From an uncultured Gammaproteobacteria bacterium (GTDB lineage Bacteria; Pseudomonadota; Gammaproteobacteria; HK1), in assembly GCA_958295465.1 (NCBI GenBank), contig OY282353.1, forward strand, positions 2,161,001 through 2,225,000: a stretch of 64,000 bases of DNA, read 5' to 3'. Below are positions 11,162 to 34,879 of this stretch, one piece after another (the stretch's first letter is position 1; the number at the start of each line of letters is the position of its first letter). A model generated the notes under the pieces. That model searched no databases and was not told where the DNA came from. It was given only the letters and a program-made list of their open reading frames with translations. Position numbers and translations under genes: made by a program.

Positions 11162-11198
11162 CATCGCCGCTCTACACGGATCTGCTACGATTCCGCAT

Positions 11199-13692: not shown

Positions 13693-13778
13693 CGCTCCAT
13701 CGTGCAGACAGGCAACCATCGGCATGGCGCATCCAACGTGACCGGACGCCATACCAGACGGCATAACGGATACGTTTG

Positions 13779-16769
13779 ATGAAGCTCCACTTCGAGCCCG
13801 ACCTCGACTTCCAGCTCCGGGCGGTCGACGCCGTCTGTGACCTGTTCCGGGGCCAGGAGATCTGCCGCACCGAATTCACCGTCACGCGAGGCCCCGCGGA
13901 GCTCCAGGGACAACTCGCCCTTTCCGGCAACGGCCTCGGCGTCGGCAACCGGCTTGCCCTGTCCGACGAGGAGATCCTCGACAACCTGCGCGCCGTCCAG
14001 CTCCGCAACGGCTTGGCGCCTTCCGAGACCCTGGCCTCCGGTGACTTCAGCGTGGAGATGGAGACGGGGACCGGCAAGACCTACGTCTACCTGCGCACGA
14101 TCTTCGAGCTGAACAAGCGCTACGGCTTCACCAAGTTCGTCATCGTCGTGCCGTCGGTCGCCATCAAGGAAGGTGTCTACAAATCGCTCCGGATCACGGA
14201 GGAACACTTCCGGGCGCTCTACTCGGGGGTGCCTTTCGAATACTTCCTCTACGACTCCACCAGGCTGGGCCGGATCCGGAATTTCGCCACCGGTCCGCAA
14301 GTCCGGATCATGGTGATGACGGTCGGGGCCATCAACAAGAAGGACGTCAACAACCTCTACAAGAACAGCGAAAGAACCGGCGGCGAGAAGCCGATCGACC
14401 TCATCCGGGCTACGCGGCCGGTCCTGATCGTGGACGAGCCGCAAAGCGTGGACGGCGGTTTGCAGGGGCGCGGCCGGGAAGCCCTGGCCGCCATGCACCC
14501 GCTCTGCACGCTGCGTTATTCGGCGACACATACGGACCGGCATCACATGGTCTACCGGCTCAACGCCGTCGACGCATACGAACGCAAGCTGGTGAAGCAG
14601 ATCGAGGTGGCGTCGGCCACCGTCCATGACGCCCACAACCGGCCCTACGTCCGCCTGGTGTCAACGAGCAATCGGCGGGGGACGGTCAGCGCCAGGGTCG
14701 AGCTCGACATCGAGACGACGGGCAAGGTCCGGCGTCGAACGAAGGTCGTCCAGGACGGCGAGGATCTCGAACAGGCGACGAGCCGCGGCGTCTACCGTGA
14801 TTGCCGCATCGGCGAAATCCGCGCCGAAAAAGGGAACGAATTCGTCGAACTCCGCGTACCCGGCGGGGAGCGCTACCTCCGGTTGGGAGAAGCCTGGGGC
14901 GACGTGGACGCCCTCGCCGTCCAGCGCCAGATGATCCGCCGGACCATCCGGGAGCATCTCGACAAGGAGAAGCGCCTGCGCCCCCAGGGGATCAAGGTGC
15001 TGAGCCTTTTCTTCATCGATGCGGTGGACCGGTACCGGAGGTACGACGACGAAGGTAGTCCCGTCAAGGGAGACTACGCCCGGATGTTCGAGGAGGAGTA
15101 TCGGCGCCTCGCCCGTCATCCGGACTATCAGACCCTGTGCGATGGTGCGGACCTCGACGATGACGAATCCATCGGGGCCCTCCATGACGGCTACTTCTCC
15201 ATCGACAGGAAAGGCGGCTGGACGGATACCGCGGAGAACAATCAGACCAACCGGGACAACGCCGAACGCGCCTACAACCTGATCATGAGGGAGAAGGAGA
15301 AGCTCCTGAGCCTAGAGACGCCGCTCAGGTTCATCTTCTCCCACTCGGCATTGCGCGAGGGCTGGGACAACCCCAACGTCTTCCAGATCTGCACCCTCCG
15401 CGACATCCGGACCGAGCGCGAGAGACGGCAGACGATCGGGCGGGGCCTGCGCCTGTGCGTCAACCAGGAAGGCGAACGCCTGCGGGGCTTCGACGTCAAC
15501 ACCCTCACCGTCGTCGCGACGGAAAGCTACGAGGAATTCGCGGACAACCTTCAGCAGGAGATCGAGAACGACACGGGGGTTCGCTTCGGCGTCGTGGAAG
15601 TGCATCAGTTCGCGGCCATTCCGGTCATCGGCGATGACGGAAGGATCACGACGCTCGGCATCGAGGCATCGAAGACTCTATGGGAGCATCTGAAGGCGGA
15701 AGGCCATATCGACGGGACGGGACGGATACGGGAGTTCCTCCGAAAGGCACTCGCGGATGAGACCTTCAGCGTGCCCGACGAGTTCTCGGCTCGTCGCGAG
15801 CATATCGTCAGGGAGCTGCGCCGGCTCGCCGGACGCCTGGAGATCAGGGACGCGGACGAGCGCCGTTCCGTCCGCCCTCGCCGGGCGATCCTGCACAGCC
15901 CCGAGTTCAAGGCCCTCTGGGACCGGATCAAGCACAAGACCACCTACCGCGTGGCGTTCGACAACGAAGACCTGCTCGCGCAATGCACCCGGGCGCTCCG
16001 GGAGGCTCCGGCGATATCGAGGCTCCGGCTCCAGTGGCGCAAGGCCGATCTCGCCATCGGCCGGTCCGGCGTGGAGGCGACCGAAACCGCCGGAGCGGCA
16101 ACCACGCTGCTGGACGAGGCCGCCGTCGAGCTGCCCGACGTGCTGACCGAGCTTCAGGATCGGACGCAGCTCACGCGGCGGAGCATTCAGCGCATCCTCT
16201 GCGAGAGCGAACGCCTCGACGACTTCAAGCGCAATCCGCAGCGGTTCATCGAGCTGGCCGCCGAGGCGATCAACCGTTGCAAGCGTTCCGCCCTGGTGGA
16301 CGGCATCAAGTACCAGCGCCTGGGAGACGACGACCATTACGCACAGGAGCTCTTCGAGAGCGAGGAGCTGACCGGCTACCTGAAGAACATGCTCTCGGAG
16401 ACGAAGAAGTCGGTCTACGAGCAGGTGGTCTTCGACTCCGGCATCGAGGCCGCCTTCGCGGAGCAGCTCGAGAAGAACCCCGCCGTCAGGGTGTACGCCA
16501 AGCTGCCCGGCTGGTTCACGGTGCCGACGCCCCTCGGCAGCTACAACCCGGACTGGGCCGTCCTGATCGACTCCGGGGAGGGCGAACGGCTGTACCTCGT
16601 GGTCGAGACGAAGGGCAGCCTGTTTGCCGGCGATCTTCGCGGCGCCGAAGGCGCCAGGATCAAGTGCGGGAAGGCGCATTTCGACGCCCTCGGAGTGGCG
16701 GAGCCGGCCGCCCGGTACGAGGTGGCAAGAAACCTCGACGATCTGTTCGCGGGCATCGGCTCCGGCTGA
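13779..16769 (+). CDS. res: type III restriction enzyme Res subunit
   Basis: A 996-residue helicase-nuclease. The Walker A motif is METGTGKTYVY (K near residue 100), the DExx-box strand is VLIVDEPQSV, and helicase motif VI-like TIGRGLRLCV follows. The C-terminal nuclease has PD at 924-925 and E-T-K at 943-945 (WAVLI and LVVETKG), the PD-(D/E)xK site of type III enzymes. It translocates and cuts with Mod at unmodified asymmetric sites. ATG at 13779 is preferred over the TTG just before it. A truncated, internally deleted copy lies at 29342-29540. Confidence 0.93.
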   Translation: MKLHFEPDLDFQLRAVDAVCDLFRGQEICRTEFTVTRGPAELQGQLALSGNGLGVGNRLALSDEEILDNLRAVQLRNGLAPSETLASGDFSVEMETGTGKTYVYLRTIFELNKRYGFTKFVIVVPSVAIKEGVYKSLRITEEHFRALYSGVPFEYFLYDSTRLGRIRNFATGPQVRIMVMTVGAINKKDVNNLYKNSERTGGEKPIDLIRATRPVLIVDEPQSVDGGLQGRGREALAAMHPLCTLRYSATHTDRHHMVYRLNAVDAYERKLVKQIEVASATVHDAHNRPYVRLVSTSNRRGTVSARVELDIETTGKVRRRTKVVQDGEDLEQATSRGVYRDCRIGEIRAEKGNEFVELRVPGGERYLRLGEAWGDVDALAVQRQMIRRTIREHLDKEKRLRPQGIKVLSLFFIDAVDRYRRYDDEGSPVKGDYARMFEEEYRRLARHPDYQTLCDGADLDDDESIGALHDGYFSIDRKGGWTDTAENNQTNRDNAERAYNLIMREKEKLLSLETPLRFIFSHSALREGWDNPNVFQICTLRDIRTERERRQTIGRGLRLCVNQEGERLRGFDVNTLTVVATESYEEFADNLQQEIENDTGVRFGVVEVHQFAAIPVIGDDGRITTLGIEASKTLWEHLKAEGHIDGTGRIREFLRKALADETFSVPDEFSARREHIVRELRRLAGRLEIRDADERRSVRPRRAILHSPEFKALWDRIKHKTTYRVAFDNEDLLAQCTRALREAPAISRLRLQWRKADLAIGRSGVEATETAGAATTLLDEAAVELPDVLTELQDRTQLTRRSIQRILCESERLDDFKRNPQRFIELAAEAINRCKRSALVDGIKYQRLGDDDHYAQELFESEELTGYLKNMLSETKKSVYEQVVFDSGIEAAFAEQLEKNPAVRVYAKLPGWFTVPTPLGSYNPDWAVLIDSGEGERLYLVVETKGSLFAGDLRGAEGARIKCGKAHFDALGVAEPAARYEVARNLDDLFAGIGSG

Positions 16770-16799: not shown

Positions 16800-17192
16800 T
16801 CAAGCGAACGGATCGACGATGGTCAGGCCGGCAATGCGCCGACCGGTCTGGAGATCCTCCGTCAACAGGGTGTCGCACCCGGCTTCGAGCGCGGAGGAGA
16901 CGATCAGGGAGTCGTAGAAGCTGAAGCCGTGAGAGCGGGCGAGGGCGAGGGCCTCCGTGTGGATCGCCACATCGATCGGGCGAACTGGGTCGAGCGCAAT
17001 GCGCGCATCGGCGATGGCCTCAGCGATAACGTCCCACTCGAAGCGGAACTTCCGGCGAAGGACGGCGGCGAACTCATTCAGAACCTGCACGCTGATCACG
17101 CCGCCGGCCAGGATCGCTTGCCGCGCGACCTCGCTTTTCCGCCCACCCCCTTGAGCGTAGATCAGGACGTTGGTGTCAAGGAACGCGGTCAC
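16800..17192 (-). CDS. PIN-domain toxin, VapC-like
   Basis: A 130-residue PIN nuclease starting at a GTG that overlaps the antitoxin stop (GTGA). The acidic residues are in AFLDTNVLIYA, LNEFAAVLRR, SFYDSLIVSSA and LLTEDLQTG. Translational coupling to the AbrB-like gene upstream marks it as the toxin of that pair. The likely activity is RNA cleavage; the target is not known. Longer upstream frames are discarded because they overlap the antitoxin gene. Confidence 0.88.
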   Translation of the reverse strand: MTAFLDTNVLIYAQGGGRKSEVARQAILAGGVISVQVLNEFAAVLRRKFRFEWDVIAEAIADARIALDPVRPIDVAIHTEALALARSHGFSFYDSLIVSSALEAGCDTLLTEDLQTGRRIAGLTIVDPFA

Positions 17193-17419
17193 CGGCCGTT
17201 GGCTTCGTCGCGGTCGAACGCATAACCCTCCGGCAACGACCAGGCGCGAGCGCGCATCCGTTCGACCGCCAGCATCCGACGATCGTCCTGCGCGATGGCG
17301 ATGCGCTTCGGCGTGGCGGAGACGACCTCCACCTCGTCGCCGGGTTTCAAGCCAAGGTCCTCGACCAACGTCTTGGGCAATCGGACCGCCAAGCTGTTGC
17401 CCCACTTCGAGACCTGCAT
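17189..17419 (-). CDS. AbrB/MazE-type antitoxin
   Basis: The 76-residue protein begins MQVSKWGNSLAVRLPKTLVE and continues LKPGDEVEVV, the swapped-hairpin AbrB (SpoVT) DNA-binding domain. The C-terminal tail should bind the PIN toxin encoded directly downstream. A typical autoregulated antitoxin; the short inverted stretch around CCTGGATATC just upstream of the ATG is a plausible operator. Confidence 0.87.
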   Translation of the reverse strand: MQVSKWGNSLAVRLPKTLVEDLGLKPGDEVEVVSATPKRIAIAQDDRRMLAVERMRARAWSLPEGYAFDRDEANGR

Positions 17420-17830: not shown

Positions 17831-17962
17831 AGTGGACCTGCCCGCCCCGTCCCCGCCCCGCCAGCCCGGTGATCCCGAGTCGGTAACGGTGCGCCTTGGC
17901 CGCCCGGCCGGCGCCACCCCCAACGACTTCCCGAGAGAGGGTTGACAGCACACCGATTTTCC

Positions 17963-17991
17963 CAACAATATCGTTTGCAACGAATTCGTTG
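17963..17991 (+). promoter_or_regulatory. CAAC-N6-GTTG operator-like repeats before cassette 1
   Basis: The perfect palindrome CAACGAATTCGTTG (17978-17991) is preceded, 15 bases upstream, by CAAC-AATATC-GTTT (17963-17976, one mismatch). The last copy ends 5 bases before the ATG of the ATPase. Four copies of the same CAAC-N6-GTTG element, again with a 15-base period, lie in front of the paralogous ATPase gene near 29040. Confidence 0.65.
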
Positions 17992-17996
17992 GGAAC

Positions 17997-19334
17997 ATGA
18001 CCATGACGCTCAGGAAAGCCGGAGGGAACTGGGTCGAGGGGGAGGATCGCTTCTTCGACCGAAAGACCGAGCTCGAAGCGCTCACCGAGCGCGTCCACGA
18101 TGGAACCCATACCCTGCTGACCGCGCAGCGGCGGATGGGGAAGACGAGCTTGGTGCGGGAGCTGCTGCGCCGGCTGAAGGTCGAGGGGCGCTTCGAGACG
18201 ATCTTCGTCGATCTGGAGGGCGCCTCCACTCCGGCGGACGCCATCGCCGAGATCGGGTTCCAGTCGAGGTCGGCGCAAGGCGCTTGGGGCCAGATCAAGT
18301 CTCTGTTCGCCAACGTCCTTCCGGCGGAGGTCGAGGTCAAGGTCGGCGGCCGGGTCCCTCAACTGGCCGACGCGGATCTGCGGGTGAAGCTTCGCGCCGG
18401 GGTCGACGCCGGCAACTGGCGGCACAAGGGCGATGAGGTCTTCGCGGCTCTGGCGGAGAACGGGCGGCCGGTGGTGCTCGCGATCGACGAGCTGCCGATC
18501 CTCGTCAACCGGCTGCTCAAGGGGGACGACTACGGCGAGGGGCGCGACTACGGGATTACGCCGGAGCGCAGGCGGACGGCGGACGAGTTCCTGAGCTGGC
18601 TTCGCAAGAACGGCCAGATGCATCGGGGCCGGGTCTGCATGATCCTCTCCGGCAGCGTGAGCCTCGAACCCATCCTGCAACAGGCCGGACTCAGCGCCCA
18701 CGCCAACATCTTCTCCCCCATCGATCTGAAGCCCTGGGACAGGGAGACCGCGATGGCCTGCCTCGGCGCCCTGGGGGAGACCTACCGCCTCGACCTCCCC
18801 GAAGCCGTCCGCCAGGACATGTGCCGGCGGCTGCGGTGCCAGATTCCCCACCACGTGCAACGCTTCTTCGACACCCTTCACGAAGACCTGCGCCGGGCCG
18901 GCCGGCACAGCGCCTCGCTCGAAGACGTGGAGCGCGTGTACGACAACGAGATGCTGGGGATCCGGGGACAGATGGACCTGGTGCACTACGAGGGCCGGCT
19001 GAGGATGGTCCTGGGGGACGAGGGGTATCGGGCCGCGCTTGAGATGTTGACCGAGGCCGCGGTCAACGATGGCCGGCTACGCGGCGATGCCATCGGCCGG
19101 CATCGCGAGTCTCTCGCTGCCGAGGCCGGAGCCGGGGCCGGGATCGATCCGCTCCCGATCGAGGACGTGCTCCACGTGCTGGAGCACGACGGGTATCTGG
19201 CGAGGCAGGGCGACGGCTACCGCTTCGTCTCCGGCCTGCTTGAAGACTGGTGGCGGGTCCGATACGGCCGGTCCGGCGCTTCGTCCGCATCGCTCGGCGC
19301 CGGACCCGACCGGAGCACCCGGCGATGGCCGTGA
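17997..19334 (+). CDS. cassette 1 protein A: archaeal-type AAA ATPase
   Basis: A 445-residue P-loop ATPase of the archaeal ATPase/AAA_16 kind. Walker A is AQRRMGKTS with the lysine at 49, Walker B VVLAIDELPIL near 160-170, and a sensor strand ICMILSGSVS-like segment follows. The C-terminal part is a winged-helix-like domain (VLHVLEHDGYL, then LLEDWWRVRYG). The 10-base overlap with the next gene implies coupled translation. Its paralogue at 27784-29040 has its P-loop lysine at exactly the same residue number. Molecular function is unknown; ATP-driven switching is inferred from the motifs. Confidence 0.8.
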   Translation: MTMTLRKAGGNWVEGEDRFFDRKTELEALTERVHDGTHTLLTAQRRMGKTSLVRELLRRLKVEGRFETIFVDLEGASTPADAIAEIGFQSRSAQGAWGQIKSLFANVLPAEVEVKVGGRVPQLADADLRVKLRAGVDAGNWRHKGDEVFAALAENGRPVVLAIDELPILVNRLLKGDDYGEGRDYGITPERRRTADEFLSWLRKNGQMHRGRVCMILSGSVSLEPILQQAGLSAHANIFSPIDLKPWDRETAMACLGALGETYRLDLPEAVRQDMCRRLRCQIPHHVQRFFDTLHEDLRRAGRHSASLEDVERVYDNEMLGIRGQMDLVHYEGRLRMVLGDEGYRAALEMLTEAAVNDGRLRGDAIGRHRESLAAEAGAGAGIDPLPIEDVLHVLEHDGYLARQGDGYRFVSGLLEDWWRVRYGRSGASSASLGAGPDRSTRRWP

Positions 19335-22276
19335 CCGCTCCTCCCCCTCGGAAGTACAACCCGGGGTTCCTCACCGACGACGAGCTGGTGGCGTCGTTCT
19401 GCGTGCGGACGAGCGAGTTCGAATCGATCGTCGAGATGCTGCGCGAGTGCACCGGAAGCTCGAACCCGCACCAGATCGTGATCGGCCCGCGCGGCAGCGG
19501 GAAGACGAGCCTGCTCCTGCGGGTCGCGGCCGAGGTGCGCCGGGATGCCGGGCTGTCGTTCGCCTTCTTCCCCGTCGTCTTCGCGGAGGAGAGCTACGAG
19601 GTCGCCACCGCCGGGGAGTTCTGGCTGGAATGCCTGTCCCGTCTCGCCGACCAGGCGCCGCAGCGGGAGGACGGCCCCGACATGCACCTGACCGTCGAGG
19701 ATCTGCGCGCCCTCCGCGACGACCGGACGCTTGGCGAGCGTTGCCTCGCCGCTCTGTTGGACTTCTCGGACCGGGAGGGCAGGCGGCTGGTGCTGATGGT
19801 CGAGAACCTGAACATGATGTTCAGGGACATGGCGGACTCCAGGGAAGCGGGATGGCGGCTGCGGAAGACCCTCCAGACCGAAGCGCGGATCGTCCTGCTC
19901 GCGAGCGCGACCAGCCGCTTCGACGCAATCGACCGCCCCGACCATGCCCTGTACGACCTGTTCCGGACGCTCACCCTGCGCCCTCTCGACACGAAGGAAT
20001 GCGCCGTTCTGTGGGAGGCGGTGTCCGGCCAGCGCCACCCTCCCGAGACGATCCGCTCACTGGAAATCCTCACCGGCGGCAGCCCGCGCCTGCTCGCGAT
20101 CGTGGCCCGATTCGGCGCGGGGCTGTCCTTTCGCGAACTCATGGCCGACCTGCTTGATCTGGTCGATGACCACACGGAGTACTTCAAGGGTCACCTCGAA
20201 TCGCTCCCGGCCCAGGAGCGGCGGGTCTATCTCGCGCTCGCCGACCTGTGGAAGCCGGCGTTCACGAAGGAGGTCGCGGACCGGGCGCGGCTCGAAACGA
20301 GCAAATGCAGCGCCCAGCTCACCCGCCTCGTCGAGCGCGGCGCCGTCCAGGTCGCGGGCGGCACGGTCCGGCGCAAGCAGTACTACCTGAGCGAGCGCCT
20401 GTACAACATCTACTACCTGCTGCGCCGCAACCGCGGACCGGATCGCCTGATCGAAGCCCTCATTCGATTCATGGCGTCGTACTACTCGCCGGATGAATTG
20501 AAGGACATCGGCACCCGGATCGCCCGCGAAGCGCAGGGGTTCGATCCAGAGATGCGATCGCTGCATCAGTCAGCATTCGCGCAACTGATGGAACTGCCGA
20601 CTCTGGCGGGGTATCGAGAAGAGTTGCGCGCGATGGCTCCCGCGAATTTCGCAAAAGTTCCCTATCGGATTTCGGCGCCCACAGATGAGGCGGGAACGGA
20701 GGCGATGGGGGTCGAACAGGATCATCGCTCGGCCGCTCGACTTCACGGTGCTACAGACGCTCCCCCGGAGGTGATAGCGGCAAGGGCACTTTTCGGTAAA
20801 GCGGTCGCGCTGGGGGACCAGAATCGGGTTGAGAATGCGTTAGCCACCTTCCACGAGCTGGTGCACCGATTCGGCGAGAGCGAGACTCCGGCCCTTCGTG
20901 AGCTTGTCGCGATGGCTCTCTTCAACAAGGGGGTGACACTCGGCGCGCTCGACCGGCCAGAGGATGAATTGACCGCCTGCGACGAAGTAGTGCGCCGCTT
21001 CGGTGAGAGCGAGACTCCGGCCCTTCGTGAGCTTGTCGCGATGGCCCTCGTCAACAAAGGAGCGACACTCGGCATGCTCGACCGGTCAGAGGATGCACTG
21101 ACCGCCTGTGACGAAGTATTGCGCCGATTCGGCGAGAGTGAGACGCCGACCCTTCTTGAGCCGGTCGCGAGGGCTCTCGTCAACAAGGGGATGGCTCTTG
21201 ACACACTCGATCGGCCAGAGGATGCACTGACCGCATACGACGAAGTATTGCGCCGCTTCGGTGAAAGCGAGACGCCAGCCCTTCTTGAGCCGGCGGCGAA
21301 GGCTCTCTTCAACAAGGGGGGGATACTTGACAGGCTGAACCGGCCAGAGGAAGCACTGACCGCCTACGACGAAGTATTGCACCGCTTCGGTGAGAGCGAG
21401 ACGCCGGCCCTTCTTGAAGCGGTCGCGAAGGCTCTCTTCAATAAGGGAGCGACACTTGGCGGGCTGAACCGGCCAGAGGAAGCACTGACCGCCTACGACG
21501 AAGTATTGCGCCGCTTCGGTGAGAGCGAGACGCCAGCCCTTCTTGAAGCGGTCGCGAAGGCTCTCTTCAATAAGGGAGCGACACTTGGCGGGCTGAACCG
21601 GCCAGAGGAAGCACTGACCGCCTGCGACGAAGTATTGCGCCGCTTTGGCGAGAGCGAGACGCCGGCCCTTCTTGAGGGGGTCGCGAAGGCTCTCGTCAAT
21701 AAGGGAGTGGCACTTGGCACGCTCGACCGGTCAGAGGAAGCACTGACCGCCTGCGATGATGTGGTGCGTCGCTTCGGGGAAAGCGAATACCCCATACTTC
21801 GCATGTGGACTGAAATCGCGCTCCTGAACAAGGCAGATCTGGAACTGGCGAGTCAGAGGTACGACTCAGCTATCGAGACGGTTGATCGAGCACTTGATCA
21901 GCATCTTGCAAGTCCGCCGCAGAACCGATGGTGGGGCCACCTGATCCGGGCGGAGGCTATTTTGGCAAGTGGCGATCCATCCGCCTGCGAGCAGGACATT
22001 ACGGCCATCCTCGCAGCCCTTCCGGGGCTCAGCGCTCTGTTCTTGGAGAGGATACTGGGCGCCCTGATGGCGTTCAGCATCGAGATCGGATCGGCGCGGA
22101 TGCGAGAGCTGATCCGGGCATCGTCGGCGGCGGATCTTCTGTTACCGCTCACGACGGCACTGGAACGGGAAATGGGACTTCAGCCCCGGGTGGCGCGGGA
22201 AGTAGAGGAAGTCGCCGAGGATATCCGGCGGGACTTGGCGAAGCTGAAGGAAGCTCGAACCAATGGCGCGACGTAG
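19325..22276 (+). CDS. cassette 1 protein B: AAA ATPase with TPR-like repeats
   Basis: A 983-residue protein. Walker A GPRGSGKT is at 54-61. The Walker B position reads MVENLN (158-163), with E-N where D-E is usual. GGSPRL near residue 250 is a sensor-2-like turn. A winged helix follows (about 290-360, containing LERGAVQV-like VERGAVQV). From about residue 510 to 820 there are seven to eight 43-residue TPR-like units of the type EEALTAYDEVLRRFGESET plus a helix ALFNKGATLG. ATG at 19325 overlaps the end of the ATPase A gene. It resembles the larger paralogue at 22540-27777, encoded convergently. Confidence 0.8.
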   Translation: MAVTAPPPRKYNPGFLTDDELVASFCVRTSEFESIVEMLRECTGSSNPHQIVIGPRGSGKTSLLLRVAAEVRRDAGLSFAFFPVVFAEESYEVATAGEFWLECLSRLADQAPQREDGPDMHLTVEDLRALRDDRTLGERCLAALLDFSDREGRRLVLMVENLNMMFRDMADSREAGWRLRKTLQTEARIVLLASATSRFDAIDRPDHALYDLFRTLTLRPLDTKECAVLWEAVSGQRHPPETIRSLEILTGGSPRLLAIVARFGAGLSFRELMADLLDLVDDHTEYFKGHLESLPAQERRVYLALADLWKPAFTKEVADRARLETSKCSAQLTRLVERGAVQVAGGTVRRKQYYLSERLYNIYYLLRRNRGPDRLIEALIRFMASYYSPDELKDIGTRIAREAQGFDPEMRSLHQSAFAQLMELPTLAGYREELRAMAPANFAKVPYRISAPTDEAGTEAMGVEQDHRSAARLHGATDAPPEVIAARALFGKAVALGDQNRVENALATFHELVHRFGESETPALRELVAMALFNKGVTLGALDRPEDELTACDEVVRRFGESETPALRELVAMALVNKGATLGMLDRSEDALTACDEVLRRFGESETPTLLEPVARALVNKGMALDTLDRPEDALTAYDEVLRRFGESETPALLEPAAKALFNKGGILDRLNRPEEALTAYDEVLHRFGESETPALLEAVAKALFNKGATLGGLNRPEEALTAYDEVLRRFGESETPALLEAVAKALFNKGATLGGLNRPEEALTACDEVLRRFGESETPALLEGVAKALVNKGVALGTLDRSEEALTACDDVVRRFGESEYPILRMWTEIALLNKADLELASQRYDSAIETVDRALDQHLASPPQNRWWGHLIRAEAILASGDPSACEQDITAILAALPGLSALFLERILGALMAFSIEIGSARMRELIRASSAADLLLPLTTALEREMGLQPRVAREVEEVAEDIRRDLAKLKEARTNGAT
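20857..21790 (+). repeat. 129-bp tandem repeats inside cassette 1 gene B
   Basis: Seven to eight in-frame units of 129 bases (43 codons). Two adjacent copies around 21360-21620 are almost identical over their full length, while the outer ones have drifted. The conserved core encodes RRFGESETPALLE. Confidence 0.85.
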
Positions 22277-22407
22277 AGATCAGACGGCGAGAAAGGGGGC
22301 GAGGCCCCGCAACCATGTGTCCATATCGGAAAAGAGTCATCCTGGCCCGGCTGACCGGACAAGGGTGAGTGGTGATGAATATGAGGGACTGCGTCCTATC
22401 CGGTGGC

Positions 22408-22470
22408 GGGCGTCCCGCTGCAAGCAGGCCGGAAGCCCGCCACCAGGCAAGACGGGCGAGACGTCGACGT
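22408..22470. repeat. GC-rich intergenic repeat, copy 1
   Basis: GCGTCCCGCTGCAAGCAGGC and the following 40 bases resemble the stretch 57439-57520, with the shared order C-GCAAGC-GGCCGGA-GCCCG-C-GGCAA-CGGGCG. It lies in the convergent gap 22277-22539, which contains no gene. It looks like a dispersed non-coding repeat able to form hairpins. Confidence 0.4.
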
Positions 22471-22539
22471 CCGCAGGACGCTCCGTAGCGCGGGACGAAC
22501 CGTCGAAGCGCATAACAGATATCCGGCTGAACATTGGCA

Positions 22540-25500
22540 TTACTTCGTCCTGCCGGTAGTTGTTGTGCCTCTGGATCTCTCCACCTCCTCGATTCGCTGG
22601 CGGATGTCCTGGGCGATCTCAAGCACTTCAATCGGCGCGCGAACCGTCTCGCCGATGCGCTGGCGCAGTGCGACGATTAATGGTTCCAGCGCATTGGATT
22701 TCTTCCTGTCACTCGACAGGATATCGATCAGATCACGTTCCAATGCGCCAACTGCAGTCAAGCCCAGCATCTGGCGCACCATGGCTTTGTTTCCAGGAAC
22801 GAATGCAGCGTAAATTGAGCGGAACGTTTCCCTGGAATCCGAATGTTTCCCTTGAGCAAGAAACACTTTCATCTTTATCCATTTCGCTCTCCATTCGAAC
22901 GTGATTGCATTGTCGTCGGTCAATGCACTGTATTTTCGTTCAAGTACTTCGCTTGTATTCAGCGCTTCTTCCATATAATGGAGATCGACTTGTACCTTGC
23001 CTTTGTTAGTCAGTGCTTTGGCCACCCACTCCTGAAGCTCCGGCGCGTCACTGTCTCCGAAGCGCTCGACTACCTCGTCGTAGACCGCAATCGCTGCATC
23101 GGCCTCCCCGAGTTGTCCCCGCGTCACACCCTTGATGACCAGTGCTTTGGCCACCCACTCCTGAAGCTCCGGCGCGTCACTGTCTCCGAAGCGCTCGACT
23201 ACCTCGTCGTAGACCGCAATCGCTGCATCGGCCTCCCCGAGTTGTCCCCGCGTCACACCTTTGTTGAACAGTGCTGTGGCCACCTGCTCCTGAAGCTCCG
23301 GCGCGTCACTGTCTCCGAAGCGCTCGACTACCTCGTCGTAGACCGCAATCGCTGCATCGGCCTCCCCAAGTTTCCCCCGCGTCACACCCTTGTTGAACAG
23401 TGCTGTGGCCACCTGCTCCTGAAGCTCCGGGGTGTCACTGTTTCCGAAACGCTCGATTACCTCGTCGAAGAGCACAATCGCGGCATCGGCCTCCCCGAGT
23501 TGTCCCCGCGTCACACCCTTGTTGACCAGTGCTGTGGCCACCCGCTCCTGAAGCTCCGGCGCGTCACTGTCTCCGAAGCGCTCGACTACCTCGTCGTAGA
23601 CCGCAATCGCTGCATCGGCCTCCCCAAGTTTCCCCCGCGTCACACCCTTGTTGACCAATGCCATGGCCACCCGCTCCTGAAGCTCCGGCACGTCGCTGTC
23701 TCCGAAGCGCTCGACTACCTCGTCGTAGACCGCGATCTCCGCTTCGGCCTCCCCGAGTTGTCCCCGCGTCACACCCTTGTTGACCAGTGCCTTGGCCACC
23801 TGCTCCTGAAGCTCCGGCGCGTCACTGTCTCCGAAGCGCTCGACTACCTCGTCGTAGACCGCAATCGCTGCATCGGCCTCCCCAAGTTGTTCCCGCGTCA
23901 AGCCCTTGATGACCAGTGCTGTGGCCACCCGCTCCTGAAGCTCCGGCGCGTCACTGTCTCCGAAGCGCTCGACTACCTCGTCGTAGACCGCAATCGCTGC
24001 ATCGGCCTCCCCGAGTTGTCCCCGCGTCAAGCCCTTGTTGACCAGTGCTTTGGCCACCTGCTCCTGAAGCTCCGGCGCGTCACTGTCTCCGAAGCGCTCG
24101 ACTACCTCGTCGTAGACCGCAATCGCTGCATCGGCCTCCCCGAGTTGTCCCCGCGTCAAGCCCTTGTTGACCAGTGCTTTGGCCACCTGCTCCTGAAGCT
24201 CCGGCGCGTCACTGTCTCCGAAGCGCTCGACTACCTCGTCGTAGACCGCGATCTCCGCTTCGGCCTCCCCGAGTTGCCCCCGCGTCACACCCTTGTTGAC
24301 CAATGCTATGGCCACCTGCTCCTGAAGCTCCGGCACGTCACTGTCTCCGAAGCGCTCGACTACCTCGTCGTAGACCGCGATCTCCGCTTCGGCCTCCCCG
24401 AGTTGTCCCCGCGTCACACCCTTGTTGAACAGTGCTGTGGCCACCTGCTCCTGAAGCTCCGGCACGTCACTGTCTCCGAAGCGCTCGACTACCTCGTCGT
24501 AGACCGCGATCTCCGCTTCGGTCTCTCCGAGTTGTCCCCGCATCACACCCTTGTTGAACAGTGCTTTGGCCACCCGCTCCTGAAGCTCCGGCGCGTCACT
24601 GTCTCCGAAGCGCTCGACTACCTCGTCGTAGACCGCGATCTCCGCTTCGGTCTCTCCGAGTTGCCCCCGCATCACACCCTTGTTGACCAGTGCCATGGCC
24701 ACCCGCTCCTGAAGCTCCGGCGCGTCACTGTCTCCGAAGCGCTCGACTACCTCGTCGTAGACCGCGATCTCCGCTTCGGCCTCCCCGAGTTGTCCCCGCG
24801 TCACACCCTTGTTGAACAGTGCTTTGGCCACCTGCTCCTGAAGCTCCAGCGCGTCACTGTCTCCGAAGCGCTCGACTACCTCGTCGTAGACCGCAATCGC
24901 TGCATCGGCCTCCCCAAGTTTCCCCCGCGTCAAGCCCTTGTTGACCAGTGCTTTGGCCACCCGCTCCTGAAGCTCCGGCGCGTCACTGTCTCCGAAGCGC
25001 TCGACTACCTCGTCGTAGAGCGCAATCGCTGCATCGATCTCCCCAAGTTTCCCCCGCGTCACACCCTTGTTGACCAGTGCTTTGGCCACCTGCTCCTGAA
25101 GCTCCGGCGCGTCACTGTCTCCGAAGCGCTCGACTACCTCGTCGTAGAGCGCGATCTCCGCTTCGGCCTCCCCGAGTTGTCCCCGCGTCACACCCTTGTT
25201 GACCAATGCTATGGCCACCCGCTCCTGAAGCTCCGGCGCGTCACTGTCTCCGAAGCGCTCGACTACCTCGTCGTAGACCGCGATCTCCGCTTCGGTCTCT
25301 CCGAGTTGCCCCCGCATCACACCCTTGTTGACCAGTGCCATAGCCACCCGCTCCTGAAGCTCCGGCACGTCACTGTCTCCGAAGCGCTCGACTACCTCGT
25401 CGTAGACCGCGATCTCCGCTTCGGCCTCCCCGAGTTGTCCCCACGTCACACCCTTGTTGAACAGTGCTTTGGCCACCCGCTCCTGAAGCTCCGGCACGTC

Positions 25501-27777
25501 ACTGTCTCCGAAGCGCTCGACTACCTCGTCGTAGACCGCGATCTCCGCTTCGGCGTCCCCAAGTTGCCCCCGCATCACACCCTTGTTGATCAGTGCTGTG
25601 GCCACCTGCTCCTGAAGCTCCGGGGTGTCACTGTCTCCGAAGCGCTCGACTACCTCGTCGTAGACCGCAATCGCTGCATCGGCCTCCCCGAGTTGTCCCC
25701 GCGTCAAGCCCTTGATGACCAGTGCTGTGGCCACCCGCTCCTGAAGCTCCGGCGCGTCACTGTCTCCGAAGCGCTCGACTACCTCGTCGTAGACCGCAAT
25801 CGCTGCATCGGCCTCCCCAAGTTTCCCCCGCGTCAAGCCCTTGTTGACCAGTGCTTTGGCCACCTGCTCCTGAAGCTCCGGCGCGTCACTGTCTCCGAAG
25901 CGCTCGACTACCTCGTCGTAGACCGCAATCGCTGCATCGATCTCCCCGAGTTTCCCCCGCGTCACACCCTTGTTGAACAGTGCTTTGGCCACCTGTTCCT
26001 GAAGCTCCGGCGCGTCACTGTCTCCGAAGCGCTCGACTACCTCGTCGTAGACCGCAATCGCTGCATCGGCCTCCCCAAGTTGTTCCCGCGTCAAGCCCTT
26101 GATGACCAGTGCTGTGGCCACCTGCTCCTGAAGCTCCGGCGCGTCACTGTCTCCGAAGCGCTCGACTACCTCGTCGTAGACCGCGATCTCCGCTTCGGCG
26201 TCCCCAAGTTGCCCCCGCATCACACCCTTGTTGATCAGTGCTGTGGCCACCTGCTCCTGAAGCTCCGGGGTGTCACTGTTTCCGAAACGCTCGATTACCT
26301 CGTCGAAGAGCACAATCGCGGCATCGGCCTCACCAAGCCGTCCTTTCGTGATCAGTTCTATTGCCAACTTCTCCCGAAGCTCCGGGGCGTCACTGTCTCC
26401 GAAACGCTTGGCTACCTCGTCGTGGATCGTGGTCTGCTTGGATCTCCCTGGATATGGCTGCACCATATTGGGGAAGAATTTGCCGATTTTTGGGATTTCG
26501 GTGACTGCTCGCTCGATTCCTTCGCGAATAGTTGATAATTGCATCGCTTCCGAATTCAGATTGACGAACATTTCTGTCATTTCATCATCGGTATAGAATA
26601 CGACCAGGAACAAGATCAGATTCCGCACGACAGCCGCTTCGTCACGTTCCCGCCGCAGTTTGTAGTAGATGCTGTAGAGGCGTTCCGCGGCAGCATACAG
26701 CCGCTTCTTGCCCCTTCCTTCCACGATGACCGCACCTCGATTGACCAACCTCCCGAGCAGGGTCGATACGGATCGGACGTCCATGCGAGCACGGGCCGCG
26801 ATCTCGCCGGTGCTCGACGGTTGCCAGAGGTCGATCACCGAGAGATAGACGCGGCGTTCAGTCTTTGCGAAGCCTGCCAGGTGCGAACGAAAATACTCGG
26901 TATGATCGTCGATCAGACTGACCAGATTTTCCATTAGCTGGCGCAGGGATCGGTGCTGTGCGAATCCTGCGACGATGACCAGGAGACGGGGGTTGCCGCC
27001 GGTCAGAATCTCCAACGGCCTGATCTCCCGTTCGCTTACGGTGTCGCCACTGGCCATCTGCCACAGACGTCGGCACCCTTCGGTATTCAGCGGCTCCAGG
27101 CGGACGATTCGGAACAGCTCGAAGAAAGGCTCTTTCGCGTCATCCAGTCCCTTGAAACGACTGGTGGCGGTAGCGAGCAGGATGATCCGGGGTTCCGACT
27201 GCAATGTCTTGCGGAGCTTCCATCCGAAATCGGCGTCCACGTCTCCGCACAGCGTTTGCAGGTTTTCGATCATCAGGACGATTTGCTTTCCCGTCCGATC
27301 GGTCGCTTCCAGGGCGGCAGCACGAGCGTGCCCCTCCAGTTCCTTCCCGCGCCACCGGGCCGCCAGATCGGCGTGTGTATCCCTGAGCTCTTGCGCACTT
27401 TCGGGATCGCTCTTGCCAATCTCCCTTGCGAGGTGGAACAGCGTTTCGAGCCAGAAATCGCCCATATTGAAGATTTCCTGGCTTTCTTCCATGAACCGGA
27501 CCGGCAGCAACCGTTCAGAGAACTCCCGGTTGGTGCGCAACTCCGCGGCAACGCGCGCCAGCAGCATGGTTTTTCCCCGCCCGCGAGGGGCCACGAGCAG
27601 GACGTGTTGGCACGACGGCGCACCGACGTTTCCGTGGAGCACTTCGAGCACGATGCCCAGTTCGCGCTCCCTGACCACGAATTGCCTGCTCAACTCTTCG
27701 TCGGATTGAAACGTCCCCGGATTGAACTTGCGGATTTGTCTCCGTGGCCCAAGCAATTCGTTCATTGGAAGCTCCAT
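22540..27777 (-). CDS. cassette 2 protein B: AAA ATPase with about 27 TPR-like repeats
   Basis: A 1745-residue protein. Walker A APRGRGKT is at 63-70, the Walker B position reads MIENLQ (E-N again), and GGNPRL is the sensor-2-like turn. A winged helix with LVNRGAVIV follows. Residues from about 460 to 1600 are 26 full plus one degenerate 43-residue unit of the type VERFGDSDAPELQE then ALVNKGVTRGQLGEAD then IAVYDEV. A non-repeated C-terminal helical tail closes it. The gene begins 6 bases after the ATPase A stop. The long open frame on the opposite strand is a by-product of repeat periodicity. Function unknown; the repeats suggest a ligand- or partner-binding scaffold controlled by the ATPase. 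Confidence 0.85.
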   Translation of the reverse strand: MELPMNELLGPRRQIRKFNPGTFQSDEELSRQFVVRERELGIVLEVLHGNVGAPSCQHVLLVAPRGRGKTMLLARVAAELRTNREFSERLLPVRFMEESQEIFNMGDFWLETLFHLAREIGKSDPESAQELRDTHADLAARWRGKELEGHARAAALEATDRTGKQIVLMIENLQTLCGDVDADFGWKLRKTLQSEPRIILLATATSRFKGLDDAKEPFFELFRIVRLEPLNTEGCRRLWQMASGDTVSEREIRPLEILTGGNPRLLVIVAGFAQHRSLRQLMENLVSLIDDHTEYFRSHLAGFAKTERRVYLSVIDLWQPSSTGEIAARARMDVRSVSTLLGRLVNRGAVIVEGRGKKRLYAAAERLYSIYYKLRRERDEAAVVRNLILFLVVFYTDDEMTEMFVNLNSEAMQLSTIREGIERAVTEIPKIGKFFPNMVQPYPGRSKQTTIHDEVAKRFGDSDAPELREKLAIELITKGRLGEADAAIVLFDEVIERFGNSDTPELQEQVATALINKGVMRGQLGDAEAEIAVYDEVVERFGDSDAPELQEQVATALVIKGLTREQLGEADAAIAVYDEVVERFGDSDAPELQEQVAKALFNKGVTRGKLGEIDAAIAVYDEVVERFGDSDAPELQEQVAKALVNKGLTRGKLGEADAAIAVYDEVVERFGDSDAPELQERVATALVIKGLTRGQLGEADAAIAVYDEVVERFGDSDTPELQEQVATALINKGVMRGQLGDAEAEIAVYDEVVERFGDSDVPELQERVAKALFNKGVTWGQLGEAEAEIAVYDEVVERFGDSDVPELQERVAMALVNKGVMRGQLGETEAEIAVYDEVVERFGDSDAPELQERVAIALVNKGVTRGQLGEAEAEIALYDEVVERFGDSDAPELQEQVAKALVNKGVTRGKLGEIDAAIALYDEVVERFGDSDAPELQERVAKALVNKGLTRGKLGEADAAIAVYDEVVERFGDSDALELQEQVAKALFNKGVTRGQLGEAEAEIAVYDEVVERFGDSDAPELQERVAMALVNKGVMRGQLGETEAEIAVYDEVVERFGDSDAPELQERVAKALFNKGVMRGQLGETEAEIAVYDEVVERFGDSDVPELQEQVATALFNKGVTRGQLGEAEAEIAVYDEVVERFGDSDVPELQEQVAIALVNKGVTRGQLGEAEAEIAVYDEVVERFGDSDAPELQEQVAKALVNKGLTRGQLGEADAAIAVYDEVVERFGDSDAPELQEQVAKALVNKGLTRGQLGEADAAIAVYDEVVERFGDSDAPELQERVATALVIKGLTREQLGEADAAIAVYDEVVERFGDSDAPELQEQVAKALVNKGVTRGQLGEAEAEIAVYDEVVERFGDSDVPELQERVAMALVNKGVTRGKLGEADAAIAVYDEVVERFGDSDAPELQERVATALVNKGVTRGQLGEADAAIVLFDEVIERFGNSDTPELQEQVATALFNKGVTRGKLGEADAAIAVYDEVVERFGDSDAPELQEQVATALFNKGVTRGQLGEADAAIAVYDEVVERFGDSDAPELQEWVAKALVIKGVTRGQLGEADAAIAVYDEVVERFGDSDAPELQEWVAKALTNKGKVQVDLHYMEEALNTSEVLERKYSALTDDNAITFEWRAKWIKMKVFLAQGKHSDSRETFRSIYAAFVPGNKAMVRQMLGLTAVGALERDLIDILSSDRKKSNALEPLIVALRQRIGETVRAPIEVLEIAQDIRQRIEEVERSRGTTTTGRTK
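23010..26420 (-). repeat. 129-bp tandem repeat array, about 26 units
   Basis: In-frame 129-base units that are nearly identical at the nucleotide level, differing at a few positions that recur in several units: ADAAIAVYDEV versus AEAEIAVYDEV, KALVNKG versus TALVIKG, and GDSDAP versus GDSDVP or GDSDTP. The mosaic sharing of variants between distant units indicates recombination or conversion among repeats. Confidence 0.92.
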
Positions 27778-27783
27778 CGGCCT

Positions 27784-29040
27784 TCAGTTTTCATCCGGAA
27801 GGTGACTATCAAGGGGGGTGTGGTGATCGCGGAAGCGTGCAGACCACCAGTCCTTCAACAACCGCGACGGAAAACGATGACCATCACGTCCGGCTTCGAG
27901 ATAGCCATCATGCACCAGGACGTCGAGGGCCTCCGTGATGCGGCGGGAAGAATCGTCGATCACGACGGTATACAGTCCTTCGAGGCAGCGGCGGGCGTTG
28001 GCCGTGAATACCCCTTGGGTAGCCGCCTCAGCCAGGATCTTCATGGCGATCGAGTAGCTTGTCTCATCGTCAAGCCCCTCCTCGAGACGTGTCGCGTAGT
28101 GCACCAAGTCGTTCTGCCCCGAGGGTCCCAGAAGTTCGGTGCGGTAGACTTCGGCGACATCGTCCATCGTCACGCGGTCGCGCTTCTTCATCATGGCGGA
28201 CTCCCGAAGACGTGCGAAGAAGGACTGTACGTGGTGAGGAATCCCGATACCGAGTGCTTCGTATACGGCGTTTGCCACGCCGTCGTCTATCGGTATTCCG
28301 TGACTCTCGGCGAGACGTTCGAAGCACTCGACGCTGGTTTCAAGGCTCCAGGGTCTCAGCGTGAAGGGATCGAGATGGTTGATGCGATCGGGTATGCCGA
28401 GCCGGTGCACCAGAGGGGTGAGCCCGATGCTGCCGGATACGATGAGCACCGGGGAGCCGCCTTCGAGCCTCTGGAACGTACCGCGGAGCCAGCTCAGGAA
28501 CTCTTCGACCCGCCGTTCGCCGCCGTCCTCGCGGAGCATTCGCTTGAGGAATATGGGCAGTTCGTCGATGACGAGGAGGACCGGCTTGTCGTGCGCGGAG
28601 CATTCGTGGATGAGTCGTTCACCGTGACGCCGCCAAGTTCCGGCGTTCAGCCCGGCGCGGATCTTCACGCGAAATTCCTGTGCGCTGATCCCCGCCCCGA
28701 CCTCCTCGACGTTCTCCTTGATCCAGCGCCCCATCGTGGTGACGAAGCGCGACGAGATCGAGCGAATCGGGTGTGCGGCCTCTGCGATGTCGGCGATCAC
28801 GTCCTCCGGGCAGGTCGCTCCCTCGACATCGGTGAAGAGGAAATCCCATCCCTGGTCTTCGAGCCGCCGGCCAAGCTCCCGGAGGACGCTGGTCTTGCCC
28901 ATGCGTCGCTGTCCGCTCAGTAGTACGTGGTTACCATCGCAGACTCGTGACTCCAGCACCTGTAACTCCGGCTCGCGATCGAAGAAGTCGTCGCCGCTCA
29001 CCCAGCGTCCGGTGGACGATTTCATGGTTGGCGCCTCCAT
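27784..29040 (-). CDS. cassette 2 protein A: archaeal-type AAA ATPase
   Basis: A 418-residue paralogue of the ATPase at 17997-19334. Shared marks are FFDR-x-x-EL at 19-25, GQRRMGKTS (lysine 49), LLVIDELPIFLKRML, an SGSIGL sensor strand, GIPHHVQSFF, and LLKDWWSARF at the C-terminus. The start at 29040 is chosen over a longer frame because it gives exactly the same spacing to the P-loop as the paralogue, and because operator repeats end 3 bases before it. It is followed closely by the repeat-bearing ATPase gene, as in cassette 1. Confidence 0.82.
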   Translation of the reverse strand: MEAPTMKSSTGRWVSGDDFFDREPELQVLESRVCDGNHVLLSGQRRMGKTSVLRELGRRLEDQGWDFLFTDVEGATCPEDVIADIAEAAHPIRSISSRFVTTMGRWIKENVEEVGAGISAQEFRVKIRAGLNAGTWRRHGERLIHECSAHDKPVLLVIDELPIFLKRMLREDGGERRVEEFLSWLRGTFQRLEGGSPVLIVSGSIGLTPLVHRLGIPDRINHLDPFTLRPWSLETSVECFERLAESHGIPIDDGVANAVYEALGIGIPHHVQSFFARLRESAMMKKRDRVTMDDVAEVYRTELLGPSGQNDLVHYATRLEEGLDDETSYSIAMKILAEAATQGVFTANARRCLEGLYTVVIDDSSRRITEALDVLVHDGYLEAGRDGHRFPSRLLKDWWSARFRDHHTPLDSHLPDEN

Positions 29041-29043
29041 GTT

Positions 29044-29114
29044 CAACAAATTCGTTGAACACAATAACGTCAACAAATCGGTTGTCAACCGTTTTGTTGA
29101 CAACGATTTCGTTG
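29044..29114 (-). promoter_or_regulatory. four CAAC-N6-GTTG repeats before cassette 2
   Basis: Copies at 29044-29057, 29071-29084, 29086-29099 and 29101-29114 share the form CAAC-6 bases-GTTG. The last three repeat every 15 bases. The copy nearest the gene has 7-base arms (GTTCAAC/GTTGAAC) and ends 3 bases from the ATG. The same element precedes cassette 1. A DNA-binding repressor or a recombination function are the two plausible uses. Confidence 0.65.
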
Positions 29115-29124
29115 AACAGATGCA

Positions 29125-29213
29125 CGGACTCCCAGGTCCGCCCGGCTCGGACGGCGACATCTTCGGCGGCTGGCTGCTCGCGCAGCGGACTCCCAGGTCC
29201 GCCCGGCTCGGAC
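29125..29213. repeat. 28-bp exact direct repeat
   Basis: The 28 bases at 29125-29152, beginning CGGACTCCCAGGTCCGC, recur exactly at 29186-29213. They contain GGACTCCCAGGTCC, itself nearly palindromic. They separate the operator array of cassette 2 from the res relic. The rest of 29115-29341 holds no gene. Confidence 0.8.
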
Positions 29214-29341
29214 CCTGGCGGCACGCGCACCGTCCGCGGGACAGGCATTGGCCGCTGGCGGAGTTGCCCCGATTCAGTGGACAGTGAAGGGCTTGGGTTT
29301 CATGCAGCTTCCTGGTAGTTCCTCTCGAAGGCCATCGGGAG

Positions 29342-29540
29342 AGGTTCGAGGAGGAGTATCGGCGCCTCGCCCGCCATCCGGACTACCGGACCCACTTTGA
29401 AGGTGCGGACCTCGACGAGTCCATCGAGGCCGTCCATGACGACTACTTCTCCATCGAAACGAAGGACAGCCTGTTTGCCGACGATCTTCGCGACACCGAA
29501 GGCGCCAGGATCAGGTACGGGAAGGTGCATTTCAGGGATG
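29342..29540 (+). pseudogene. internally deleted relic of a type III res gene
   Basis: Bases 29342-29456 match the intact res at about 15085-15206 (FEEEYRRLARHPDY, then VHDDYFSI), and 29457-29535 match 16605-16680 (ETKDSLFADDLRDTEGAR, KVHF). About 1.4 kb between them is missing. The join falls at a shared TCGA-A/ACGAA stretch. No start codon or complete domain remains. Confidence 0.82.
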
Positions 29541-34200: not shown

Positions 34201-34775
34201 CCGATGCGCGGGTCGTAGGGCACGACCTTGTAGCCCTGGTAGATGAGGCCCTTGTCCCAGATCTGCCGGAGCAGCCACCACACCGACTCGATGTAGGCGT
34301 TGTCGAGGGTGTAGTAGGCGTCGCGCATGTTCACCCAGAAGCCCATGCGCTCGGTCATCTTCTCCCAGTCGCCGATGTAGCGCATGACCGATTCGCGGCA
34401 GCGGCGGGTGAACTCCGCCACCCCCACCCGGCGCTCGATCTCGGCCTTGTCGAAGATCCCCAGCTCCTTCTCGATCTCGTGCTCGACCGGCAGGCCGTGG
34501 GTGTCCCAGCCCGCCTTGCGGGGGCAGTGGTAGCCCTGCATGTGCTTGAAGCGGGGGAAGACGTCCTTGAAGGTGCGGGCGAGGACGTGGTGGATCCCCG
34601 GCCGCCCGTTCGCGGTGGGCGGCCCCTCGTTCCAGCAGTACAGGGGCCGGCCTTCGCTGCGGCGCTGCGCCTCGTTGAACACGTCGTGCTCGCGCCACAG
34701 GGCGAGCACCTGCTCCTCCAGCGCCACGCCGTCGTAGCGGCTGGGTACGTCTTCGAATCCCGTCGCTCGTCCCAT
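31257..34775 (-). CDS. ileS: isoleucine-tRNA ligase, long (eukaryote-like) type
   Basis: A 1172-residue class I synthetase that charges tRNA-Ile. The HIGH-type motif is GRPGIHHVLA, KMSKS is DGRKMSKSQGN, and the editing domain (WTTTPWTLPSNLAL) is present. The start at 34775 has AGGGAG 8 bases upstream; an ATG two codons earlier is possible. The C-terminal domain contains an odd low-complexity insertion of about 75 residues with repeats of SGGESSDEAAGSEAV, absent from two ileS fragments elsewhere in the window. The sequence is of the type common in actinobacteria and organelle-like lineages, not the E. coli form. A T-box leader precedes it. Confidence 0.95.
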   Translation of the reverse strand: MGRATGFEDVPSRYDGVALEEQVLALWREHDVFNEAQRRSEGRPLYCWNEGPPTANGRPGIHHVLARTFKDVFPRFKHMQGYHCPRKAGWDTHGLPVEHEIEKELGIFDKAEIERRVGVAEFTRRCRESVMRYIGDWEKMTERMGFWVNMRDAYYTLDNAYIESVWWLLRQIWDKGLIYQGYKVVPYDPRIGATLSSHEVALGYKEVEDPSIHVRFPVEGEERTSFLVWTTTPWTLPSNLALAVHPEVDYVYARVKGDGEEGETLILAEALAGSALREDGYTVEKRVKGADLEGMRYVRLFDHLPAEGPICRVWAADFVTVEDGTGIVHCAPAYGEDDIRLCRAKGLPVVHGVGLDGCFVPEVEPVAGKFFKDADPILIALLEERELMYRSERYRHNYPHGWRTGDPLIYYAKHAWYIETSRFRDRMVALNRTINWVPETIRDGRFGNWLANNVDWALSRERFWGTPLPVWTDGEGGFRCIGSVAELESLCGRSLRDVDLHRPAVDEITFIHPDTGRTWRRVPEVIDCWFDSGAMSYAQFHYPFENRERFESRFPADYICEAIDQTRGWFYSLHAIAALVSDSAAYRNCVCLAHIVDKDGRKMSKSQGNIVDPYDVFDHVGADPLRWYLACRIAPEVQKRISVDFVREVASGFINTWWNTYAFFVMYAKLDKVNLGLAIRAASPGRARERLRRELGANHDAVDPGRDVPLAERPEIDRWALALLHRTVVEVTEALEGYDVLAAGKAIESFVDQLSNWYVRRNRRRFWKAAAGRDKQAAYLTLYECLHTANRLMAPIMPFISEAVHQNLVRGVDATACLSVHMSDWPVPDPEARDDALLAEIDAVQRVVGLGRAARNRSGVRVRQPLSRLLVRTPGEGEVAALARFDAQILEELNVKALEMLAPDAELVGYRIKPNLPRLGKRYGKRIPAIRAALANADAGAVAAAVAAGRTFTVDVALPGGGRSGGAGEVVSGTGSSTEAAGGEIFRGGRPSGDAAGSEVVSGGESSDEAAGSEAVSGGESSDEAAGSEAVSGAGSSSAGVAGSEALTFEPEDVLVETTSAEGYACAEEGGWLVGLDTALTEALEREGLARELVRTVQEARKQAGLEVSDRITLRIDGSAEVAAALDAHRDYIMEETLATGWGGADWAPGYSVEHTLGAERWTIGLARVAGR

Positions 34776-34789
34776 CGTCATTGCTCCCT

Positions 34790-34840: not shown

Positions 34841-34879
34841 CCGCTCTCCATTGACTCCCGGGGCGATGGTTCGACCGCT

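Follow-up and report, generated by a model that had tools for sequence, protein, structure and literature searches.

Pairs of Orc/CDC6 ATPases in which one member has a disrupted Walker B motif have been mentioned briefly in the literature, where they stand beside a KAP NTPase (PMC10853773). Fungal NLR proteins, in turn, carry 42-aa TPR units that show repeat-number polymorphism and positive selection on the concave face (PMC4986451). Here we describe a bacterial gene pair, A and B, that shares traits with both and occurs twice in a window of 64,000 nucleotides from an uncultured Gammaproteobacteria bacterium (lineage HK1; assembly GCA_958295465.1, contig OY282353.1, positions 2,161,001 to 2,225,000). 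Like the published Orc/CDC6 pair, A and B are two Orc/Cdc6-class ATPases of one operon, one of them with Walker A intact and Walker B broken, and they lie in mobile neighbourhoods. Judged by its description, the published pair may nonetheless be distinct, as A-B has no recurring KAP or other third gene (at most 6 of 88 loci), B bears TPR arrays and the A-B cassette has an operator system.

B also resembles the STAND and NLR proteins (Apaf-1, CED-4, NB-ARC resistosomes, Avs and bNACHT) in its core of nucleotide-binding, helical and winged-helix domains and in its C-terminal superstructure-forming repeats, with TPR as the presumed sensor. It differs from them in lacking an N-terminal effector, with a second ATPase gene present instead, in having E-N for the acidic Walker B pair, in its MarR/ArsR-like winged helix and in its own operator. 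The near-identical TPR units of about 42–43 aa, their changing number and their concave-face variability are features that B has in common with the fungal NLRs (PMC4986451), whereas A-B is bacterial, is encoded by two genes and has no effector domain. The closest solved structures to A, both by fold and by sequence profile, are the archaeal ATPase_2 proteins PAB2304 and SSO1545, but A was found only as a pair with B. Similarity to the MADS system is limited to the P-loop: the PADLOC mad8 profile matches approximately 100 residues of A2 (E = 2e-7), but there is no full-length Mad8, and no mad genes recur beside the A-B pair.

An earlier note made from the sequence of this window had proposed A-B as an unnamed two-gene system. 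No full-length match above a curated cut-off was obtained for A or B in PADLOC 2023, NCBIfam 2026 or Pfam, where the matches were to generic AAA and TPR models or fell below threshold; B1 barely attains the cut-off of PF24389 (ORC-CDC6-like), in a match spanning 60 residues. A search of mostly open-access journal literature yielded general precedents and no paper naming the pair. The proposal thus stands as far as the libraries are concerned, and has to be qualified by the paired Orc/Cdc6 precedent (PMC10853773).

Cassette 1 lies on the plus strand and comprises A1 (17997–19334; 445 aa), an ATPase_2/SSO1545-like AAA+ ATPase, and B1 (19325–22276; 983 aa), a STAND/Orc-Cdc6-like ATPase with a MarR/ArsR-like winged helix and a TPR tail; the two genes overlap by 10 nt. 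Cassette 2, on the minus strand, comprises the A1 paralogue A2 (27784 to 29040 or 29025) and the B1 paralogue B2 (22540–27777; 1745 aa), which has a far longer TPR tail of 27–28 units and begins seven bases past the end of A2. We favour 29025 over 29040 as the start of A2 because its homologues start at MKSSTGR or MRSSTGR. The cassettes are convergent and separated by 263 bp. The coordinates, gene order, orientation and common plan given in the earlier note all proved correct, and its description of the cassettes as paralogous agrees with identities of 38% between A1 and A2 and 42% between the cores of B1 and B2. That observation was right, yet understated, as the genome (5.68 Mb, a single contig) holds four A-B cassettes, two of them outside the window. 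The third (L008) is flanked by an HmaB-like methylase on one side and an HmaC/DUF499-like ATPase on the other, and the fourth (L009) adjoins a DrmD-like helicase.

A1 has canonical Walker A (RRMGKTS) and Walker B (IDELP) motifs and a C-terminal winged helix. Its P-loop lysine is at residue 49, as had been noted, and the same number holds for A2 if counted from 29040. Among the 81 A sequences compared, the Walker A lysine and the Walker B D-E are invariant (81/81; D-E 100%). The AlphaFold2 model of A (pLDDT 89) gave its best fold matches to PAB2304 and SSO1545, followed by Orc1/Cdc6; the matches of the A and B models include Orc1/Cdc6 on origin DNA and TnsC. By hhalign, A is distantly homologous to B (probability 98%). 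No nuclease, TIR, protease or membrane effector domain was recognised in either protein.

The E-N pair, GG-x-PRL turn and winged helix pointed out for B are present and are retained across 84 B homologues, in which the Walker A lysine is found in 100%, the Walker B E in 96% and the N in 99%, with the conserved GG-x-PRL following. The B core model (pLDDT 86) matches the folds of Orc1/Cdc6, Apaf-1, CED-4 and NB-ARC. It contains the nucleotide-binding, helical and winged-helix domains of the Apaf/NB-ARC fold as well as the AAA+ plus winged-helix arrangement of Orc1/Cdc6, and the winged helix matches MarR/ArsR regulators by sequence. C-terminal superstructure-forming repeats expected of a STAND protein are present as TPR in B1, B2 and most homologues. 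In place of the acidic Walker B pair of STAND proteins, B has E-N in more than 95% of sequences, while A has D-E. B1 lacks the N-terminal effector that is fused to the STAND core in Avs proteins: its P-loop is at residues 54–61 with no domain N-terminal to it, and no Avs family match was found. In AAA+ enzymes the second acidic residue of Walker B is the usual catalytic base. Because of its E-N, B would be expected to bind ATP but hydrolyse it poorly, and this motif asymmetry suggests that A is probably the competent half of the pair.

Profile searches of 398 genomes of the phylum recovered A at full length in six genomes and B at full length in exactly those six, with nine copies of each and the two genes side by side every time; the remaining A matches were short or weak P-loop matches. 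The pair thus occurs in about 1.5% of this sample, and the 6/6 coincidence would have a probability near 2e-13 if the genes were independent, a figure that ignores phylogeny. In GTDB genomes spanning about ten phyla, 80 loci were compared, and B lies directly downstream of every A with room for it; the only three A genes without B (L033, L059 and L089) are in records that end 2–277 bases past A. Searching from B in 44 genomes, we found A upstream of 69 of 75 B matches, a test in which only the extra B copies are informative, as these genomes had been picked for containing A. Of the other B matches, two were solo B genes, one was the second B in an A-B-B tandem, and the remainder were fragments or lay at contig ends. 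Up to six cassettes occur per genome. The carriers include the cultured purple sulfur bacteria Thiorhodococcus mannitoliphagus (locus L055) and Thiococcus pfennigii (L046). An all-against-all comparison of neighbours revealed no third conserved gene, with no neighbour family in more than 6 of 88 loci. A and B are therefore a strict two-gene module. These co-occurrence tests, run from A and from B, rule out chance adjacency and bear out the earlier note, which had named rare adjacency of the homologues as the finding that would count against a genuine two-gene system; rare adjacency was not what the tests showed.

Several variants of the cassette were also seen. Two Latescibacterota genomes carry A-B-B tandems (L042, 11224–17144; L069, 11191–16368), in which the second B has a different repeat tail and its own operator. 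In decayed or solo cassettes (L152, 5207–6919; L153, 3823–6366; L154, 5652–8275), B stands without A, in one case lacking repeats and having altered Walker motifs, or A is truncated. A Segatella copri plasmid (L158, 5974–8021) carries, downstream of a WYL-domain gene, an A whose next gene encodes a short ATPase similar to B. This protein has the acidic Walker B residues intact but lacks a TPR tail, and the two genes are possibly a minimal relative of A-B.

Both cassettes are preceded by the same palindromic element. The cassette 1 operator (17963–17991, plus strand), just upstream of A1, consists of two tandem sites 15 bp apart, an imperfect one at 17963–17976 and the perfect palindrome CAACGAATTCGTTG at 17978–17991; the cassette 2 array (29044–29114, minus strand) has sites at 29044–29057, 29071–29084 and 29101–29114. 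The claim that one operator precedes both starts was upheld, as exact matches to CAACGAAWTYGTTG occur in the 5.68-Mb genome only at these two promoters, with 11 near-matches in the window versus 0.8 expected. Across 81 loci, the 130 bp upstream of A (10.5 kb in total) contain 118 CAAC-N6-GTTG sites, versus 29 in the remaining 1.44 Mb of locus DNA, making the operator largely promoter-restricted. At least one site is present in 60 of the 81 loci, where shuffled promoters give about 0.1. Of 59 spacings between consecutive sites, 42 measure exactly 15 bp, so that the palindromes abut with one base between them, and their junction, GTTGACAAC, includes the −35 box TTGACA. GTTGACA is found in 43 promoters versus 0.7 expected from shuffling, and 31 promoters (0.3 expected) combine TTGACA with a correctly spaced −10-like TAnnnT. 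The tandem palindromes thus overlap the −35 box of most cassettes. Transposon ends were ruled out as an identity for these elements, as the sites are at the 5′ promoter only.

A different operator, TTTTGCCAA, marks a monophyletic A clade of eight that includes the third cassette of this genome, although a few loci of the CAAC clade carry the TTTTGCCAA label through loose matching. Upstream of more divergent cassettes, the palindromes differ again. Operator and cassette thus evolve together, and the protein that reads the operator is expected to be a product of the cassette. B genes without an A of their own keep the operator directly upstream (the second B in L042 and L069, and the solo B in L152), and the solo B in L153 has upstream TCGTACG repeats like those upstream of cassette L022. 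As the operator type follows the cassette clade and A-less B genes retain an operator, B probably autoregulates. The simplest reading of these sequences is that the winged helix of B binds the operator and represses its own promoter.

The 43-residue repeats reported in the earlier note are real: TRF detected 7.2 copies of a 129-bp (43-aa) unit at 20862–21786 on the plus strand in B1, which has 8 repeats, and 25.7 copies at 23011–26331 on the minus strand in B2. Units are near-identical inside one protein, with a mean DNA identity of 92% in B2. The core of B2 shares 97% identity with that of its orthologue in the genome OY282378.1 (G398), yet B2 has 28 repeats and the orthologue 11; counts in other close B pairs are 8/11, 7/10 and 4/1. 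When 12 B proteins were pooled, amino-acid differences between units clustered at helix-A positions 10, 13, 14, 17, 20 and 21, which we take, by standard TPR numbering, to line the concave ligand face. Mean variability is 0.53 at these six positions versus 0.14 at other helix-A positions (permutation p = 0.0007), with no corresponding rise in silent differences. Not all B proteins have the array: 12 of 84 homologues, some of them truncated, score no 43-aa repeat. Repeat turnover and surface-biased variability, as read from these sequences, resemble the pattern of fungal NLRs. Recombination among units, concerted evolution and selection presumably act on the arrays and, by analogy with the fungal proteins, the TPR array probably behaves like a fast-changing receptor.

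The two cassettes form a block (17958–29268) common to OY282378.1, with approximately 94–96% DNA identity outside the repeat array. There the block has the same convergent order and spans the circular junction of the record. Its flanks differ from those in the window, being, by sequence reading, an ABC-transporter permease on one side and a DUF499-type ATPase on the other. The flanks of the window itself (a PIN toxin on one side, a DUF4143 ATPase on the other) are found at 5.31–5.32 Mb in OY282378.1, rearranged and with the block absent; alignment with that region gave no clean empty site and no target duplication. At the right edge of the block is an 80-bp remnant (29260–29339) matching the 3′ end of an IS3-type orfB, of which about 16 copies are present in other parts of the genome. 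In the A tree, sequences of different phyla stand close to one another, for example an A from Chloroflexota (L049) next to a gammaproteobacterial one (L084), and binning errors could account for some of these cross-phylum neighbours. Together with the different sites of the block in two related genomes, the tree indicates that A-B cassettes spread horizontally. No A-B pair was found in phage records or viral contigs; there is thus no direct phage link, and phage or viral carriage of the pair was discarded on the basis of this search.

Just beyond the orfB remnant, a fragment at 29341–29418 is 88% identical to part (15083–15160) of an intact type III res gene, and by its sequence would be the remnant of a second res gene outside the block. 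The intact genes, mod (11097–13175) and res (13776–16769), lie beside cassette 1, confirming the restriction genes that the earlier note had placed there. A full-length PD-Lambda-4_A homologue (7076–11161; PADLOC E = 8.5e-89) is directly upstream of mod, and a PIN-domain (VapC-like) toxin gene (16800–17405) lies between the restriction genes and cassette 1.

Defence genes adjoin the cassettes at all three loci of this genome, and on Moraxella plasmid pNP7-2 a divergent A-B pair is found a few genes beyond qatD of a Qat system. At E ≤ 1e-15, PADLOC returned 112 matching families in 106 neighbours and 157 in 119 neighbours, against 28 in 102 genes from random regions of ten of these genomes, counts that refer to models rather than genes and were obtained with a simple gene caller and a single control set, so that the roughly fourfold per-gene excess is only indicative. 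The neighbourhoods are in this sense defence-rich. The defence or recognition role suggested earlier thereby gains circumstantial backing from the defence neighbours, the patchy spread and the receptor-like repeats, while the function itself is still inferred.

A-B is probably a system for defence or self/non-self recognition. We give an even chance to its being, more specifically, an autoregulated, horizontally moving two-protein conflict system of NLR-like type (STAND/Orc-Cdc6 class). In the mechanism that we infer, B would be both sensor and switch, with an ATP-binding core, a DNA-binding winged helix and a TPR superhelix serving as a rapidly re-copied receptor, and A would be its partner with an intact ATPase site. 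In the resting state, B would occupy the tandem palindromes over the −35 box, either by itself or together with A, and keep expression low. On binding of a ligand to the TPR array, most likely a phage or mobile-element protein, B would change nucleotide state and form an Orc/Apaf-like oligomer with A. A would then provide catalysis, and the A-B assembly would halt the invader or the cell. Somewhat more tentatively, we propose two-protein NLR-type recognition, in which a paired-ATPase switch bears a receptor array that diversifies by copying and recombining near-identical TPR units, under the control of its own DNA-binding sensor subunit; with similar reserve, such a system might be the bacterial counterpart of the repeat evolution of fungal heterokaryon-incompatibility NLRs.

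Other readings draw on much of the same evidence. The STAND core, MarR/ArsR-type winged helix, TPR sensor and palindromic sites would suit a two-gene transcription regulator of the MalT/GutR type, in which the STAND-TPR protein would respond to a metabolite or protein by switching a set of target genes. Control of a wider gene set is disfavoured, however, because the exact palindrome is nowhere else in the genome than at the two cassette promoters; across loci the sites are almost only upstream of A or B, and with no regulon visible and no conserved neighbour to serve as target we consider such a regulator unlikely. An autorepressed addiction module of toxin-antitoxin type, or a selfish module, would spread for its own sake and defend only by exclusion. 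The genes overlap or abut, the operator array is of the autoregulatory type, spread is patchy, genomes may hold several copies, the block occupies different sites in relatives, and there are remnants and solo B genes, all of which would be in keeping with this; addiction remains a live rival to the conflict-system reading. We nevertheless consider it unlikely: both proteins are large ATPases, with neither a small toxin nor a labile antidote, and receptor-like diversification of repeats is unexpected of a plain addiction module. Compared with toxin-antitoxin systems, the cassettes have the autoregulatory kind of operator but no small toxin.

Alternatively, an integrated replicon or mobile element could have A-B at its core, with Orc/Cdc6-like initiators and iteron-like repeats acting in replication, partition or transposition; the similarity in fold to TnsC and to Orc1/Cdc6 bound to origin DNA, and the palindrome arrays beside the genes, would suit this. 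Yet the sites overlap −35/−10 promoters and are at the 5′ end only, the pair is not accompanied by an integrase, transposase, Rep or helicase, and a genome may hold up to six cassettes, so that this reading seems very unlikely. We judge it equally doubtful that A and B are a cellular AAA+ housekeeping pair, such as a chaperone-like or repair scaffold, that is near defence genes because accessory genes cluster. Unrelated accessory genes do gather in genomic islands, and no effector was recognised, but a housekeeping pair would hardly be confined to about 1.5% of the phylum sample, mix phyla in the A tree or change its repeats so rapidly.

If the conflict-system reading is true, A-B would represent defence or self/non-self recognition in bacteria with a receptor diversifying by repeat turnover, a mode best described in fungal NLRs. 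The pair is a small testable system, with two genes, a defined operator and a natural allelic series of arrays. It would allow one to ask what is recognised by the TPR arrays, and by what route two paired ATPases, of which one lacks a catalytic glutamate, can signal when no effector is obvious.

About 30 of the 80 locus record titles bear bin names such as RHO, COS, IRC, CAR, APA and SB06xx, which we take to come from a sponge study and related studies. These names fit the sponge species of PMC8163846, and enriched defence genes, eukaryote-like repeat proteins and lateral transfer have been reported for sponge symbionts (PMC8163846). Many carriers of the A-B pair are thus apparently sponge symbionts, and this apparent abundance suggests an ecological role in dense communities.

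Two further repeats were noted in the window. An apparent isoleucyl-tRNA synthetase gene (31257–34907) contains 3.6 copies of a 45-bp repeat (31638–31804) that encode a Gly/Ser/Glu-rich insert, and the HmaC-like gene beside the third cassette has a similar low-complexity insert. Further downstream, the sizes and order of open reading frames recur between approximately 43688–46900 and 47830–51100 (737/736 aa and neighbours), which suggests a roughly 4-kb tandem duplication.
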